Shown piece by piece: positions 8,201 through 64,000 of a stretch of DNA of 64,000 nt (the first letter of the stretch is position 1; every line of letters begins with the position of its first letter). The stretch is from positions 62,001 through 126,000 of the forward strand of contig NZ_JAJMLZ010000003.1 in assembly GCF_022227765.1 (NCBI RefSeq), written 5' to 3'. This DNA is from Ectothiorhodospira shaposhnikovii. GTDB taxonomy: Bacteria; Pseudomonadota; Gammaproteobacteria; Ectothiorhodospirales; Ectothiorhodospiraceae. Both the position numbers and the translations under genes were made by a program. Under the pieces are notes generated by a model. It did not search any database. It was not told the origin of the DNA and was given only the letters and a program-made list of their open reading frames with translations.

Positions 8201-8854
8201 GCCGAGCCAGAAATCCCAGTCGGGGGAGAAGGTCGCCAGGATGCGGTAGTTGTCCTCACTCTCCTGCAGACGGGCATAGGATTCCATCAATGCGTCACGC
8301 TGCTGTATGAGCGGGGTCTGGTCCACGATGCTGCAGATGAAACCCGGCTTGGCGCCATCCGGTTCCGGCAGGCGGATCAGGGCAATGTCGGCGATCAATG
8401 GGCGGCCGTCGGCCCGCCGCAGTCGAACGGCCTGGCAGTCCGAGCGTCCATCATGGCGTGCCCGCTCCAGTGCGTTTTCCAGGAAATTGCGGTGCTTTGC
8501 CTCGGATAGCTGGGTGAACAACCTGCGATTGAGGGCGAGGGTCCGGTGTGCGGCGCTGTTGGCGTCCTGCAGAAAGCCGCTCCAGTCAATCCGCAGGACC
8601 GGTAGCGGCAGTTCCTGATACAGGCGGCTGAACCGGCTCAGCGCCAGTTCGGTTGCCGTCTGGCTCTCCAGCAATGCCTCCTGCTGGATGCGCAGTTCGG
8701 CATGGTAGATGTGCAACTCCTCCAGGAGTGTCTCGACGTCCAGCTCACCCCGTTGCAGGGAGAACAGGGTGCTGTCGAAGCTGTGATCCCGCAGGATCTG
8801 CTTGGCTCTTTCACGCAGGGTGGCGGCGTTGAGCAGTGGCATCTTGGAGGCCAT
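5243..8854 (-). CDS. PAS/GAF-GGDEF-EAL cyclic-di-GMP signalling protein
   Basis: A 1203-aa cytoplasmic sensor. Order: coiled N terminus; PAS at roughly residues 85-190; PAS at 200-320; GAF-like at 335-490; PAS at 505-630; PAS at 640-760; GGDEF at 765-930; EAL at 945-1195. No membrane segment is apparent. The GGDEF signature reads GGDHF, so diguanylate cyclase activity is doubtful. The EAL domain keeps EALVRW, the DDFGTGYASM loop, LKIDQSFI and EVVAEGVET, so c-di-GMP phosphodiesterase activity is likely, perhaps GTP- or PAS-regulated. It lies between the glycogen genes and the photosynthesis operon, whose last gene (bchJ) ends only about 20 bases upstream. Read-through from the photosynthesis operon is possible but not shown. 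Confidence 0.9.
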   Translation of the reverse strand: MASKMPLLNAATLRERAKQILRDHSFDSTLFSLQRGELDVETLLEELHIYHAELRIQQEALLESQTATELALSRFSRLYQELPLPVLRIDWSGFLQDANSAAHRTLALNRRLFTQLSEAKHRNFLENALERARHDGRSDCQAVRLRRADGRPLIADIALIRLPEPDGAKPGFICSIVDQTPLIQQRDALMESYARLQESEDNYRILATFSPDWDFWLGHDGEFRYISPACARITGYSAEDFMDDPELMERIIHPDDLPRYQSHKTATDRTLDSAPVQFRILTKSGETRWVEHVCNPVMDAHGEFMGYRGINRDITERQNAQDSLEHQLRFQAMLANISSLFVNTRIEHMDPAMVQALQQIGRFFQAERCRILEYSPDRNALELTHHWSGLEGDGTGPDLRRQWHVTQLPWTTLRMRAREVLMLEKGPGQPPEFAREHQLLSPDNARSVRLVPMISDGEILGLLLLESFGQLPAHHWQEQPDQMRMVAENLAGMIIRCRAQKELQESEARYRHICAVTSDIAYACLRDDRGTLQIDWMTDSIQAMTGYSVADIRDRGSWEFLVLDEDQAIFKREILELEPGRASCCELRLRSKLGPPRWVRATSECIPSSHPTGPVRLYGGLIDITEQKRQQSRIQRLALVVEQSPSIVLVTDREARIEYINARFSQLTGFSREEIQGQPLALIHPHDAAMSPDLDGILHDLSAGRIWSGELAVRKKSGEHFWEQATLTPLKNTQGDITHFVKMSEDLSDRKALSEQLSYLAHYDPLTGLPKRAVMRECLQQAMVRVRHNGDHLAIFSIDVDDLKRVNDSLGHAAGDELLRILSDRLQGLLGKEDTLARLGGDHFLLLKAHMAQTQDALHLAERIQQLVEQPLTIQDQSLVVTASTGIALFPGDADTVDELMRRGDAALHRSKNDGEGRAYCFFTSTMDKQLKDQFQLEQALRRGLERDELLLHFQPRVDMATGQIQSLEALVRWLHPEQGLLPPHRFIPVAESSGLILSLGPLVLRKTCEQIQRWRAAGIPVVPVAINLTTQELYKQGLVTEVLATVSQHDIDPALLEFEITESTAMRSIDDARAILSELKTAGFTLSLDDFGTGYASMSYLSNLPVHGLKIDQSFIAELERDPARCRQTMAIVDAMIGLGLNLGLEVVAEGVETPTQRDFLMAHRCTRGQGFLFSHPQPADVIGSLLQDGSPLPVAPDQTRP

Positions 8855-60250: not shown

Positions 60251-60502
60251 GACGTGTTGGGGGTGTCTCCGGGCGCTGTATGTGGCCAAGAGTGGGGGAA
60301 AGGGACCGGGTGAGAGTGGAGTGGGGCTGTTCCGCGTTGATGCAATCATGCTGATATGGCATAACGGTTCTGTGACCGATTACCGGTTTTGACATCCCCG
60401 CCCCAAGGAGCTCCAGCCCACATGGATTGTCACCCCCACCAATCTCCCACCATCTGCTGAACCGGCCCCAGGTTGCCGGGTAATGCCCATGGGAAACGCG
60501 CC
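60251..60502. other. Gap before the restriction-modification locus
   Basis: About 250 bases without a supported gene. I see no clear sigma-70 promoter, terminator or attachment site. A GGGAAA ribosome binding site for hsdM lies at its end. It marks the boundary between core genes and the mobile defence locus. Confidence 0.5.
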
Positions 60503-62482
60503 ATGAACACCGAAAACCACACCCAACTCGCCGCCTTCATCTGGTCCGTGGCGGACCTGCTGCGGGGGGATTTCAAACAGTCCCAGTACGGTCGCATCAT
60601 CCTGCCCTTCACCCTGCTGCGGCGCCTGGAGTGTGTATTGGAACCCACCCGGGCCAACGTACTCAGCACCGCCCAGGAACACCAGAGCAAACCCGATGCG
60701 GTGCGCGAGAAACTGCTGCTCCGGGCGGCGGATCAGCCCTTTTTCAATGCCTCGCCCCTGACCCTGGGCACATTGTCCGATACCCAGACCGGCGATGACC
60801 TGATGCGCTACGTGCAGTCGTTCAGCGGAGATGCCCGGGAGATCTTCGAGCACCTGGAGTTCGAGGGGTTTATCCAGCAACTGAGCGCCAACAACCTGCT
60901 CTATCAGGTGGTGCAGCGCTTCGCCGCCATCGACCTGAGTCCGCAACAGCTCTCCAACTACGGCATGGGGCTGGTGTTCGAGGAACTGATCCGCAAGTTC
61001 GCGGAAAGCTCCAACGAAACCGCCGGGGAGCACTTCACCCCCAGGGACATCGTGCATCTGACCACCTCCCTGATCCTCACCGGTCAGGAAGACCGGCTGC
61101 AACCGCACCGGATCGTCACCGTCTATGACCCAACAGCAGGGACGGGGGGATTTCTCTCCGAGAGTGATGAGTACATCCAACAGGTCAGTCAGGGCGTGAC
61201 CGTCTCCCTGCATGGCCAGGAACTCAACCCGGAGTCCTACGCCATCTGCAAGGCGGACATGCTCATCAAGGGCCAGGCGGTGGAGCAGATCAAGCTGGGC
61301 AACACCCTTTCCGACGACCAGCTGGCGGGCGAACGCTTCGACATCATGCTCTCCAATCCTCCCTTTGGCGTGGAATGGAAGAAGGTCCAGAAGGCGATCA
61401 CCGACGAGCACACGCAGAAGGGCTTTGATGGGCGCTTCGGTCCCGGTCTGCCCAGGGTGTCCGATGGCTCTCTGCTCTTTCTGATGCATCTGGTGAGCAA
61501 GATGCGCCCCCGCCAGGAGGGTGGATCACGCATCGGCATCATCCTCAACGGCTCGCCCCTGTTCACCGGGGGAGCCGGCAGCGGGGAATCGGAAATCCGC
61601 CGCTACCTGCTGCAGCACGACCTGGTGGAGGCCATCATCGGCCTGCCCACCGATATGTTCTATAACACCGGCATTGCCACCTATGTGTGGATTCTCTCCA
61701 ATGACAAGCCCGCCGAGCGCCGGGGCAAGGTGCAACTGATCAACGCCACCGGTCGGGCCAGCAAGATGCGCAAGTCCCTGGGCAGCAAGCGCCAGTATGT
61801 GGCCGATGGCGACATCAACGAGATCGTGCGCCTGTATGGCGCCTTTGGGGAGGCGGAAGAAAGCCGGATCTTCCCGGTGGAGGCCTTCGGCTACCGGCGC
61901 ATCACCGTGGAACGTCCGCTGCGGCTGAACTTCCAGGCCAGCCCGGAGCGCATCCAGCGACTGCTGGAGGAAAAGCCGATTCAGAAGCTCGATGGCACCA
62001 CCCGCCTGGGTGTCCAGGCCGCCTGCGAGCGGCTGGGTGTCGAACGGGTCTACACCCACCGCGATGCCTTCCTGAAGGATCTCAAGGCGGCGCTGAAGGC
62101 GCTGGACCTGAAACTGGGCGCTCCCGTCATGAAGGCCATTCAGGGTGCCTTGTCCGAGCGCGACCCCGAGGCGAGCATCTGCACCGACAACCAGGGCAAC
62201 CCGGAGCCGGACACCAGCCTGCGGGACAATGAGAACGTGCCCCTGGGTGAATCCGTGTTCGACTATTTTGAGCGGGAGGTGAAGCCCCACGTCCCCGATG
62301 CCTGGATCGACGAGAGCAAGCGCGACCTGCTGGACGGGGAGATCGGCATTGTCGGCTTCGAGATCCCCTTCAACCGTCACTTCTACAAGTTCATCCCGCC
62401 GCGTCCGCTGGAGGAGATCGACGCGGATCTGAAGGCCTGCACGGACCGGATCAAGCGGATGATTGAGGAGTTGTCGGCGTGA
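60503..62482 (+). CDS. hsdM: Type I restriction-modification DNA methyltransferase subunit
   Basis: A 659-aa N6-adenine methylase. The N-terminal helical domain ([20 protein letters not shown]) is followed by the SAM motif DPTAGTGGF at 209-217 and the catalytic NPPF at 285-288. It is longer than classic HsdM, with a C-terminal extension of a type common in this subgroup. ATG 60503 has GGGAAA six bases upstream; the in-frame upstream codon is less likely. Next come an AbiF-like gene and hsdS; an hsdR is expected to the right of the window. Confidence 0.95.
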
Positions 62483-62529
62483 GGCGGTCGCAGAGAATAG
62501 TGGACGATGTTTGCCTTGCTCTTTCTGGG

Positions 62530-62633
62530 TTGACAGCGGACGTCAATACTGGTAGCGTCCACCTTAACAACACCCCCCAAGCCTATCCCGCAGTCCGCTG
62601 CGGTGACGCTCAAACCGGGGGGTTACTTTTTTT
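62530..62633 (+). ncRNA. Candidate promoter and small structured RNA upstream of AbiF-like gene
   Basis: Promoter-like TTGACA at 62530-62535, 17-base spacer, TAGCGT at 62553-62558 (weak -10). Downstream, nested hairpins: ACCCCCC (62572-62578) with GGGGGGT (62617-62623), enclosing CCGCA/TGCGG (62588-62603). A run of seven T follows at 62627-62633, so this reads as a terminator-ended short RNA of roughly 70 bases, 12 bases before the AbiF-like ATG. A further pairing GTGGACG (62500-62506) with CGTCCAC (62556-62562) is possible if transcription begins earlier. AbiF genes are known to be preceded by a structured non-coding RNA; identity with that class is inferred, not shown. Confidence 0.5.
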
Positions 62634-62645
62634 CGGGTGGTGGTA

Positions 62646-63578
62646 ATGCGTTACGACAAGCCACCCACATCCATTGACGAGCAGATCGCGCTGTTGGTGG
62701 ACAGAGGCATGTATGTGCCCTCTGCTGAACGTGCTGCACACTATCTTCGCCATATCGGCTACTATCGCCTCAGCGCCTACTGGCTGCCCTTCGAACATCC
62801 CCCGGCCACGCAAGGCCAACGGTCTCACCGATTTCTGAATGAAGTCTCGTTCGATGACGTACTGGCCCGGTACGTCTTTGATCGGGAGTTGCGGTTGCTC
62901 TGTCTGGAGGCGCTGGAGCGTATTGAGGTCTCCATCCGTGCATCTTGGGTCAATGCGCTCGCTCTGAGGCATGGTCCCCATGCCTACCTTGATTCTACCC
63001 ATTTCAAATGCGCCTATGAACACGCCGGGCAGGTGGCCAAGGCAGCCAGCGATATGGGGCGGAGTAGCGAAGTGTTCATTGAGCACTACCGGGGGAAATA
63101 TTCCGATCCAGGGCTACCACCAATATGGGTGATGGCGGAGACGCTCAGCTTCGGTGCGCTTTCCAAGTGGATTCAGAGTACTCGGGAAACCAATATCCAG
63201 AAAGAGGTGATGCATCACCTAAGGCTTCCGACGGTCGAGATCGTTCACGGTGTTTTTCATAACCTGAGCCAGCTACGCAACGTCTGCGCACACCACTCCC
63301 GCTTGTGGAATCGGCGTTTTCCCAAGAAGTACCCTCACATAAGGAAGATCCCCGATCTGCTTCATCCGGAGACCGAGGGAGAGGAGGCCCGCTATATCCG
63401 CAACCACTTGGTCATGCTTCGATACCTCATGCTGGTGATCAACCCCGGTACCTCCTGGCCACAAAGACTGTGTGACCTTCTGCAGCTGCAACCCAGTGGA
63501 ACCATCGCTGCCATGCGCCTACCCGACAACTGGCTCGAACTTCTGCAACCCACTTCACTTGGGGGGCATCGAAAATGA
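62646..63578 (+). CDS. Abi_2/AbiF-like HEPN abortive-infection protein
   Basis: A 310-aa protein of the Abi_2 (AbiD/AbiF) family. The N terminus carries the family pattern (SIDEQIALLVDRGM, LRHIGYYRLSAYWLPF); the C-terminal half has the HEPN ribonuclease motif R-x4-H at Arg211-His216 within LRNVCAHHSRLWNRRF. Family members block phage growth, probably by cutting RNA. It lies inside the type I R-M operon: 163 bases after hsdM, and its stop overlaps the hsdS ATG by four bases. ATG 62646 is chosen over the upstream GTG because GGTGG lies just before it. The T-tract of an upstream terminator-like hairpin ends 12 bases before the start, so its expression may depend on read-through. Confidence 0.88.
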   Translation: MRYDKPPTSIDEQIALLVDRGMYVPSAERAAHYLRHIGYYRLSAYWLPFEHPPATQGQRSHRFLNEVSFDDVLARYVFDRELRLLCLEALERIEVSIRASWVNALALRHGPHAYLDSTHFKCAYEHAGQVAKAASDMGRSSEVFIEHYRGKYSDPGLPPIWVMAETLSFGALSKWIQSTRETNIQKEVMHHLRLPTVEIVHGVFHNLSQLRNVCAHHSRLWNRRFPKKYPHIRKIPDLLHPETEGEEARYIRNHLVMLRYLMLVINPGTSWPQRLCDLLQLQPSGTIAAMRLPDNWLELLQPTSLGGHRK

Positions 63579-64000
63579 GCTTTCCGAAATATCCCGAGTA
63601 CAAGGATTCCGGGGTGGAGTGGCTGGGGGAAGTGCCGGCGCATTGGTCAGTTAGGCGGATTCGGTACGTAGCAGATATCAATCCGTCAAAATCCGAAGCA
63701 CGATCATTAGCGGGCAATAAGAAAGTCAGTTTTATCCCCATGGAATCGGTGGGGGAAGACGGTACGCTTGACTTAAAACATGTGCGTCCACTGGAAGAAG
63801 TTATCGACGGATATACCTATGTTCGTGATGGTGACGTCACTTTCGCCAAGATCACGCCTTGCTTTGAGAACGGTAAAGCCGCTTTGATGGAAGGGCTGGA
63901 GTCGGGTATTGGCTTCGCCACCACGGAATTGACTGTTCTTCGGCCAAAACCGAAATGCTCAACCGGCGAATTCCTTTTTCGTGTTGTCCATTCAGGGCCT
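63575..64000 (+). CDS. hsdS: Type I restriction specificity subunit, partial
   Basis: The first 142 residues of a DNA-recognition subunit; the frame is open to the window end. The start FPKYPEYKDSGVEWLGEVPAHW is a classic HsdS opening, followed by the first target-recognition domain (RDGDVTFAKITPCFENGKAA). ATG 63575 overlaps the AbiF-like stop (ATGA), so synthesis is coupled to that gene. The base composition is less GC-rich than in the core genes, as often seen in exchanged specificity genes. Confidence 0.93.
   Translation, partial: MSFPKYPEYKDSGVEWLGEVPAHWSVRRIRYVADINPSKSEARSLAGNKKVSFIPMESVGEDGTLDLKHVRPLEEVIDGYTYVRDGDVTFAKITPCFENGKAALMEGLESGIGFATTELTVLRPKPKCSTGEFLFRVVHSGP

Follow-up and report, generated by a model that had tools for sequence, protein, structure and literature searches.

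Introduction

AbiF with an RNA antitoxin and a terminator was already in print by 2025 (PMC12373285). The accessible portions of that study, on C. difficile, report that the RNA RCd22 neutralises the toxin in trans and lowers transcription of its own gene in cis, that a fusion placed behind the homologous RNA was strongly reduced, which the authors ascribe to the terminator, and that abiF rose 17-fold upon removal of the RNA. AbiF, or AbiD/F, also appears as a Cas13 relative, and AbiF with its RNA as a proposed Cas13 ancestor, in the available parts of PMC12737573 and PMC12165695. Genes of this family have further been noted in restriction-modification (R-M) operons. As far as the accessible text goes, Table 1 of Anantharaman 2013 (PMC3710099) carries Abi2/AbiF/AbiD with the remark "Embedded in R-M operons", and a figure legend on Histophilus somni places an Abi family gene between hsdR and a specificity gene of a type I cluster (PMC3339403). 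The explanation offered in 2013 for HEPN genes in R-M operons, in the part of PMC3710099 available, is an analogy to PrrC, with the toxin held by the restriction enzyme.

Here, we analyse an abiF gene and its upstream region in a type I R-M operon at the end of a 64,000-nucleotide stretch of DNA (the window). The novelty implied by a first-pass annotation of this locus must be narrowed, since AbiF in R-M operons (PMC3710099) and RNA control of AbiF (PMC12373285) both appear in the accessible parts of earlier papers. The toxin and its RNA are a known pair; what is added here is the presence of the RNA inside many R-M operons. Searches of an open-access library that lacks most subscription papers yielded no report of abiF RNA within hsd operons, of the cassette-like hsdM/hsdS junction, or of the hsdS start on the AbiF stop.

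An AbiF cistron within a complete type I operon

The gene order at the locus is hsdM, abiF RNA, abiF, hsdS, hsdR, which amounts to a complete type I operon plus one added cistron, with hsdM, hsdS and hsdR each present as an open frame (Table 1). For hsdM, the list of open reading frames offers a longer TTG start at 60473. The AbiF start is most likely the ATG at 62646 (MRYDKPP...), judged by comparison with relatives; the listed GTG at 62637, three codons longer, is a possible alternative. Between the end of hsdM at 62482 and this ATG lies a gap of 163 bases (62483–62645), and the AbiF stop codon (TGA, 63576–63578) overlaps the hsdS ATG at 63575 by four bases, ATGA. The first-pass annotation proved accurate in its coordinates and motifs, namely the position between hsdM and hsdS, the 163-base gap, the 4-base overlap, R211-H216, TTGACA, the seven T, and the 12 bases between the T-run (62627–62633) and the AbiF ATG. 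Also supported, by the Abi_2 match, the match to PDB 8VZ6, the RNA match and covariation, is its identification of an AbiF-like HEPN gene that, together with a putative antitoxin RNA, lies within a type I operon.

Table 1. Features of the hsdM–abiF–hsdS–hsdR locus (window positions; positions prefixed L002 lie in that locus)
Feature	Position	Strand	Evidence
hsdM, type I modification subunit	60503..62482	+	Pfam N6_Mtase 191.8 bits, HsdM_N 96 bits; PADLOC MTase_I 928 bits
Promoter-like site of the RNA	62530..62558	+	TTGACA 62530-62535, 17 bases, TAGCGT; TGG before -10
abiF-type RNA, candidate antitoxin	62566..62635	+	RF03085, own covariance model, fold
abiF, Abi_2-family HEPN protein, predicted RNase toxin	62646..63578	+	Pfam, PADLOC, phmmer to PDB 8VZ6
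hsdS, specificity subunit	63575..64000, past window to L002:11969	+	PADLOC Specificity_I; Pfam Methylase_S (whole gene)
hsdR	ORF L002:12021-15458, beyond window		HSDR_N, SWI2_SNF2, T1R_D3-like domains

The protein belongs to Pfam Abi_2 (PF07751; 182.5 bits against a cut-off of 25.6) and is labelled "AbiD" by PADLOC (208 bits), with no NCBIfam match at E 0.001. Residues 6–299 match the AbiF of PDB 8VZ6 by phmmer (E 1.4e-37). The HEPN R-x4-H motif is present as RNVCAH (R211-H216, numbered from the ATG at 62646), and its R, N, A and H, together with the following H, are invariant among 20 aligned relatives. RN-x3-H occurs in all 168 proteins of the AbiF tree, in or out of R-M operons and with or without RNA. 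Pfam revealed no domain other than Abi_2 in the window protein at E 0.001 or better, and at that threshold no ATPase domain of the PrrC type fused to the HEPN part. A Cas13 protein carries two HEPN domains; in this AbiF, a single conserved RN-x3-H motif and a single Abi_2 domain were seen. A single Abi_2 match was found in the genome that carries the locus.

A covarying abiF-type RNA precedes the gene

The RNA within the gap has an outer stem, ACCCCCC/GGGGGGT (62572–62578 paired with 62617–62623), an inner helix, a CUCAAA strand and a U-run at 62627–62633. A covariance-model search of the gap against the abiF RNA family matched Rfam RF03085 at full length over 62573–62623 (E 1.4e-5), its 36.9 bits falling 0.1 short of the curated cut-off of 37. 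We call the RNA abiF-type on the strength of a wider model and of covariation. The wider model (R1) was built from 59 seeds chosen among 117 candidate upstream motifs, with 14 loci left out by eye along with near-identical copies. It scores the window copy, itself one of the 59 seeds, at 61.3 bits (E 1.4e-15); the runners-up, over the window plus a further 20 kb beyond it, reach 12.1 and 11.3 bits.

Across the 59 seed RNAs, seven of ten pairs changed on both sides. Complementarity of the outer stem was used to pick seeds, so that covariation there is partly built in; the inner helix is the fairer test because its pairing was no condition of seed choice. In that helix, 97.2% of cells pair, with compensating changes at pair 19-56 in 18 sequences (C-G, A-U, U-A and G-C types) and at pair 21-54 in eight (C-G and G-C). 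Over both helices, 96.4% of cells pair, compared with 29–48% when partners are slid. Pairing stands at 96.1% in the 18 R-M-adjacent rows and 96.1% in the 41 others. By folding energy, the nested hairpin at 62565–62634 (−26.2 kcal/mol, z −3.83) was matched by 0 of 200 shuffles; the 154-base leader as a whole folds unexceptionally (z −1.37, 20 of 200 shuffles equally good).

The abiF family looks under-called by the present Rfam model. RF03085 exceeded its cut-off in three of 12 R-M loci tried, which the wider model scores at 55–71 bits, and in five of the other nine, RF03085 applied without a cut-off matched the same spot every time (28.7–33.3 bits). An early strict motif search used a rigid pattern that six loci passed, one of them doubtfully. 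An alternative pairing between the hsdM-derived leader and the RNA, the 8-base complement CAGCGGAC/GTCCGCTG, was considered and rejected as a conserved switch: 16 of 200 shuffles were as good in the window, and the average over 23 loci in which hsd genes flank AbiF on either side (sandwiched loci) was 5.65 observed and 5.65 shuffled.

Two further observations concern the RNA. Many relatives' copies carry a CUGGGG-like stretch after the U-run (CGGGTGG at 62634–62640 in the window), perhaps with a role in ribosome binding. Loci L185, L179 and L251 have two abiF RNA motifs upstream of AbiF, as does C. difficile RCd22.

The RNA recurs at AbiF genes inside and outside hsd operons

Relatives of this AbiF were gathered from genomes, the genome_contigs set and viral contigs, giving 174 ORFs, or 172 after two fragments (83 and 174 residues) were dropped. 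A gene was counted as R-M-adjacent if a same-strand hsd gene ended at most 400 bases before it or started at most 250 bases after it. The hsd neighbours were detected with profiles grown from this operon, which miss distant Hsd proteins. Type I hsd genes adjoin 43 of the 172 AbiF genes, a fraction that is not a population rate, the loci having been selected by likeness to this AbiF and including near-identical copies (e.g., L039, L041, L084 and L117; L134 and L136). The RNA is found at 40 of these 43 genes. Among the 129 without an adjacent hsd gene by the profiles used, 99 have the RNA, as do two more whose called start is over-long. By set, R-M adjacency was seen for 25 of 80 genes in genome_contigs, 10 of 60 in viral contigs and seven of 30 in the class sample, the window being the 43rd; the RNA accompanies 25/25, 9/10 and 5/7 of these, respectively.

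Of the 146 matches of our model within AbiF loci at E < 0.01, 142 lie at the start of an AbiF ORF and on its strand, and two of the remaining four (L070, L076) would fall there if an over-long called start were shortened. Seven of the 71 matches in one search set had E > 0.01 and were excluded; four of these weak matches precede AbiF genes that our count treats as lacking the RNA (L150, L159, L161, L164), and no R-M-adjacent gene is among these four. The R-M-adjacent genes counted as having the RNA include one with a weak copy (L133, 24.6 bits). In a further phylum sample, the RNA was present at 22 of 29 loci and at all seven with hsd right beside AbiF (L235, L238, L242, L246, L250, L251, L255); at L253, where hsdR lies 720 bases on, it is absent.

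Partial AbiF matches were seen in other genomes at L266, L270, L271 and L272; L266 and L272 lie beside hsd genes, and L266, L270 and L271 have the RNA upstream. At L069, a second abiF-type RNA (8457–8515, 59 bits) follows the AbiF gene of that locus at a distance of about 570 bases. No AbiF was found after this copy, and the next long ORF looks by eye like an AAA-type ATPase; the RNA is possibly an orphan antitoxin or a leftover.

The three R-M-adjacent Abi_2 genes lacking the RNA are at L169, L199 and L202. Abi_2 genes without the RNA cluster in a single deep region of the tree, and a more divergent RNA may have escaped detection there. L201 joins these three as an Abi_2 gene in or near an hsd operon, with no detectable abiF RNA and within this RNA-poor part; at L199, 22 bases separate the gene from the preceding hsdS, too few to accommodate an RNA directly upstream. 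L169, L199 and L202 may represent a second, RNA-independent kind.

A tree of 168 AbiF proteins, built quickly and without bootstrap, requires at least 29 changes of the R-M label, as compared with an average of 38.4 and a minimum of 32 with shuffled labels. The label thus changes less often than under shuffling, yet at least 29 times, which points to frequent entry into or exit from R-M operons with some inheritance. The nearest relatives of the window AbiF (L034, L038, L042, L044, L037, L047) are not hsd-adjacent, and positions in the operon vary, with M-AbiF-S, S-AbiF-R, AbiF-M-S and R-AbiF-M all represented.

A cassette-like junction between hsdM and hsdS

HsdM lies just upstream of AbiF at 18 loci, all 18 with the RNA, and hsdS follows at 12. 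Ten of these 12 M-AbiF-S loci have a candidate hsdS start, in frame, that overlaps the stop codon of AbiF (ATGA in nine, TAATG in one), the exceptions being L065, with hsdS 98 bases on, and L133, with an 8-base overlap. We compared these with the junctions of 24 HsdM-relative loci, that of the window included. At 17, there is no cassette and the next ORF starts on the hsdM stop in the ATGA or TAATG manner; these 17 ORFs were not each checked as HsdS, and one has merely 90 residues. Two junctions hold an RNA–AbiF cassette, that of the window and that of L207, which shares 70% HsdM identity, comes from the same genome as L185 and has its own cassette with two RNA motifs. At L209, L214, L216 and L224, the junction holds something else or no clear ORF, and at L206 the wrong ORF was taken.

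Since junctions without a cassette have the next ORF on the hsdM stop, 62483–63574 behaves, by this sequence comparison, as an insert that keeps an ATGA start for hsdS while AbiF replaces HsdM as the upstream neighbour. The L220 counterpart reads HsdM ...LSA followed by HsdS MSFAKYPAYKDSGVEWLGEV; in the window, ...LSA is followed by the cassette and then MSFPKYPEYKDSGVEWLGEV. For EcoKI, translational coupling of hsdM and hsdS is reported in the accessible part of PMC3510504. A search for a clean chromosomal empty site for the whole island gave none; the same-genus genome G322 matches over one stretch, up to within the L,D-transpeptidase gene, and then differs.

Promoter-like and terminator-like elements flank the RNA

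The promoter-like site upstream of the RNA fits TTGACA-N17-TANNNT, a pattern written after seeing the site, which occurs once in the 64 kb against 0.02 expected. Its −10 element has three of six consensus bases, and the default promoter scanner does not list it. TAGCGT starts at −13 from the start of the RNA model, the position at which TATAAT likeness peaks in the 23 sandwiched loci, the window among them (3.43 of 6, background 1.64). The signal is less clear outside sandwiched loci. Where AbiF is first in the hsd operon (eight loci), likeness is 2.8 at −13 and the best position is −35; where AbiF is last (five loci), it reaches 4.0 at −12; and at 83 loci without an hsd neighbour, likeness is highest right at the RNA start (2.93) and comes to 2.9 of 6 at −12.

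At the other end, the U-run begins three bases past the stem. The terminator scanner does not list this stem with its seven T, the hairpin loop exceeding the scanner's limit of 8. Weaker terminators in sandwiched operons were considered on the basis of a shorter T-run (mean 4.17, n=23, compared with 5.02, n=83, without an hsd neighbour; raw p 0.004). The idea was rejected: independent tree pairs were unsupportive (10 pairs, too few with a differing trait), and five new sandwiched loci have runs of 8, 4, 6, 4 and 7, the window having 7.

Discussion

We propose, with a probability of roughly 0.6, that the RNA and AbiF form a type III-like toxin–antitoxin unit within a type I operon, in which the RNA keeps the RNase off and read-through yields an abiF-hsdS-hsdR message. 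From the observed gene order, RNA, motifs, gene overlap and recurrence, we infer promoter and terminator use, antitoxin action, toxicity and a trigger. A short RNA would be made from its own promoter and end at its own stem and U-run. It would bind AbiF and hold the RNase off, as is known for relatives and expected here by homology. Most of the time the RNA would be made alone, with occasional read-through giving an mRNA for abiF, hsdS and hsdR, so that all three proteins would come from one transcript, with hsdS beginning on the AbiF stop codon. Should the RNA fall faster than the protein, through infection, operon loss or blocked transcription, AbiF would be freed, cut cellular RNA and arrest growth. 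AbiF would then serve both as a second line behind restriction and as a lock against operon loss.

Of the alternatives, the most durable takes the RNA–AbiF pair for an autonomous addiction or abortive-infection module, settled in a safe, expressed spot of a defence island and sharing neither regulation nor signal with restriction. Several findings agree with this possible, if unlikely, account: the module takes several positions relative to hsd (at the M/S, S/R and R/M junctions, and ahead of M), 129 of the 172 AbiF genes have no adjacent hsd gene by the profiles used, the R-M label changes at least 29 times against the shuffled average of 38.4, and the RNA pairs equally well in and out of R-M operons. 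What it does not readily accommodate is the hsdS start on the AbiF stop in ten of 12 M-AbiF-S loci, which looks selected for joint translation. Even so, the overlap may in part be a legacy of the empty junction, and tight gene overlaps are common in bacterial operons.

Quite improbable is a guard of the PrrC kind, in which the Hsd complex would hold AbiF inactive, phage anti-restriction proteins would release it and the RNA would be a secondary regulator. According to the accessible parts of PMC3710099, the HEPN RNase PrrC acts in this manner together with a type Ic system, a scheme which Anantharaman 2013 carries over to the HEPN genes found in R-M operons; the RNA-less R-M-adjacent genes at L169, L199 and L202 may also need another keeper. 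However, the RNA at 40 of the 43 R-M-adjacent copies would be superfluous under such a guard, the position of AbiF varies, and the window protein shows, in Pfam, Abi_2 and no other domain, the ATPase part of PrrC being absent. The frequency of the RNA at these genes points to the RNA, rather than the Hsd complex, as keeper, which argues against a straight PrrC analogy. Least probable of all, to the point of being very hard to sustain, is that the gap serves hsdS-hsdR merely as an attenuator or terminator and that the ORF is a dead remnant: a terminator-like end does lie between hsdM and hsdS, but the reading frame is intact over its full length and retains both the HEPN motif and the residues that do not vary among 20 relatives, and a terminator would need neither the conserved loop strand nor the inner helix.

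In operons like the present one, hsdS and hsdR lie downstream of the terminator-like end of the RNA. With AbiF, RNA and terminator-like end present in the operon as a unit, expression of hsdS and hsdR would depend on read-through past the antitoxin; synthesis of HsdS and HsdR must pass the terminator-like end, an internal promoter being the alternative route. The claim in the first-pass annotation that the toxin is wired into the restriction system holds as anatomy only, in the shared operon, the hsdS start on the AbiF stop and the terminator-like end upstream of hsdS-hsdR; its further suggestion, that phage disturbance of the RNA or of the R-M complex is the trigger, is speculative. That the RNA is retained in many restriction operons suggests that one switch may serve both defences. 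Tentatively, the RNA end might act as a shared throttle of toxin and restriction that sets the level of the abiF-hsdS-hsdR mRNA. It is conceivable, if doubtful, that a drop in the RNA or increased read-through, as on phage takeover of transcription or entry into a naive host, would raise restriction and free the toxin together. Speculatively, this would amount to a two-stage defence under RNA control, put together by bacteria on many separate occasions. The position of the terminator-like end allows a simple test of a shared RNA switch for two defence layers, control of restriction by the RNA being so far a proposal.

Among known systems, ToxIN-like type III toxin–antitoxin loci have a comparable layout, with an RNA antitoxin and terminator upstream of an RNase gene, where the present locus has a candidate antitoxin with a terminator-like end; they probably differ in protein fold and in having a repeat-array antitoxin. 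PrrC-EcoprrI likewise places a HEPN RNase gene within a type I operon. In the accessible text of PMC3710099, PrrC carries an ABC-type ATPase part and the R-M complex keeps it in check, whereas this AbiF comes without the ATPase part and with an RNA. C. difficile RCd22-AbiF and PbAbiF-AbiFr (PDB 8VZ6), both AbiF / abiF RNA (RF03085) systems, share the Abi_2 HEPN protein, RN-x3-H, the RNA just upstream and the terminator-like end before the gene. The C. difficile pair lies in a prophage lysis module, with an RNA of two motifs and its own terminator, as the available part of PMC12373285 describes; unlike it, the window RNA has one motif, with the outer stem followed by the U-run, and lies inside hsdMSR with hsdS and hsdR downstream. 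The Abi2/AbiF/AbiD genes of PMC3710099 share both family and operon kind, and the accessible text already proposes a combined role of restriction and toxin; the H. somni gene of PMC3339403 shares the operon kind and, by its printed name only, the family. The accessible portions of these two papers make no mention of an RNA at such genes, and to their description the present analysis adds the RNA, the junction, the hsdS overlap and the recurrence.
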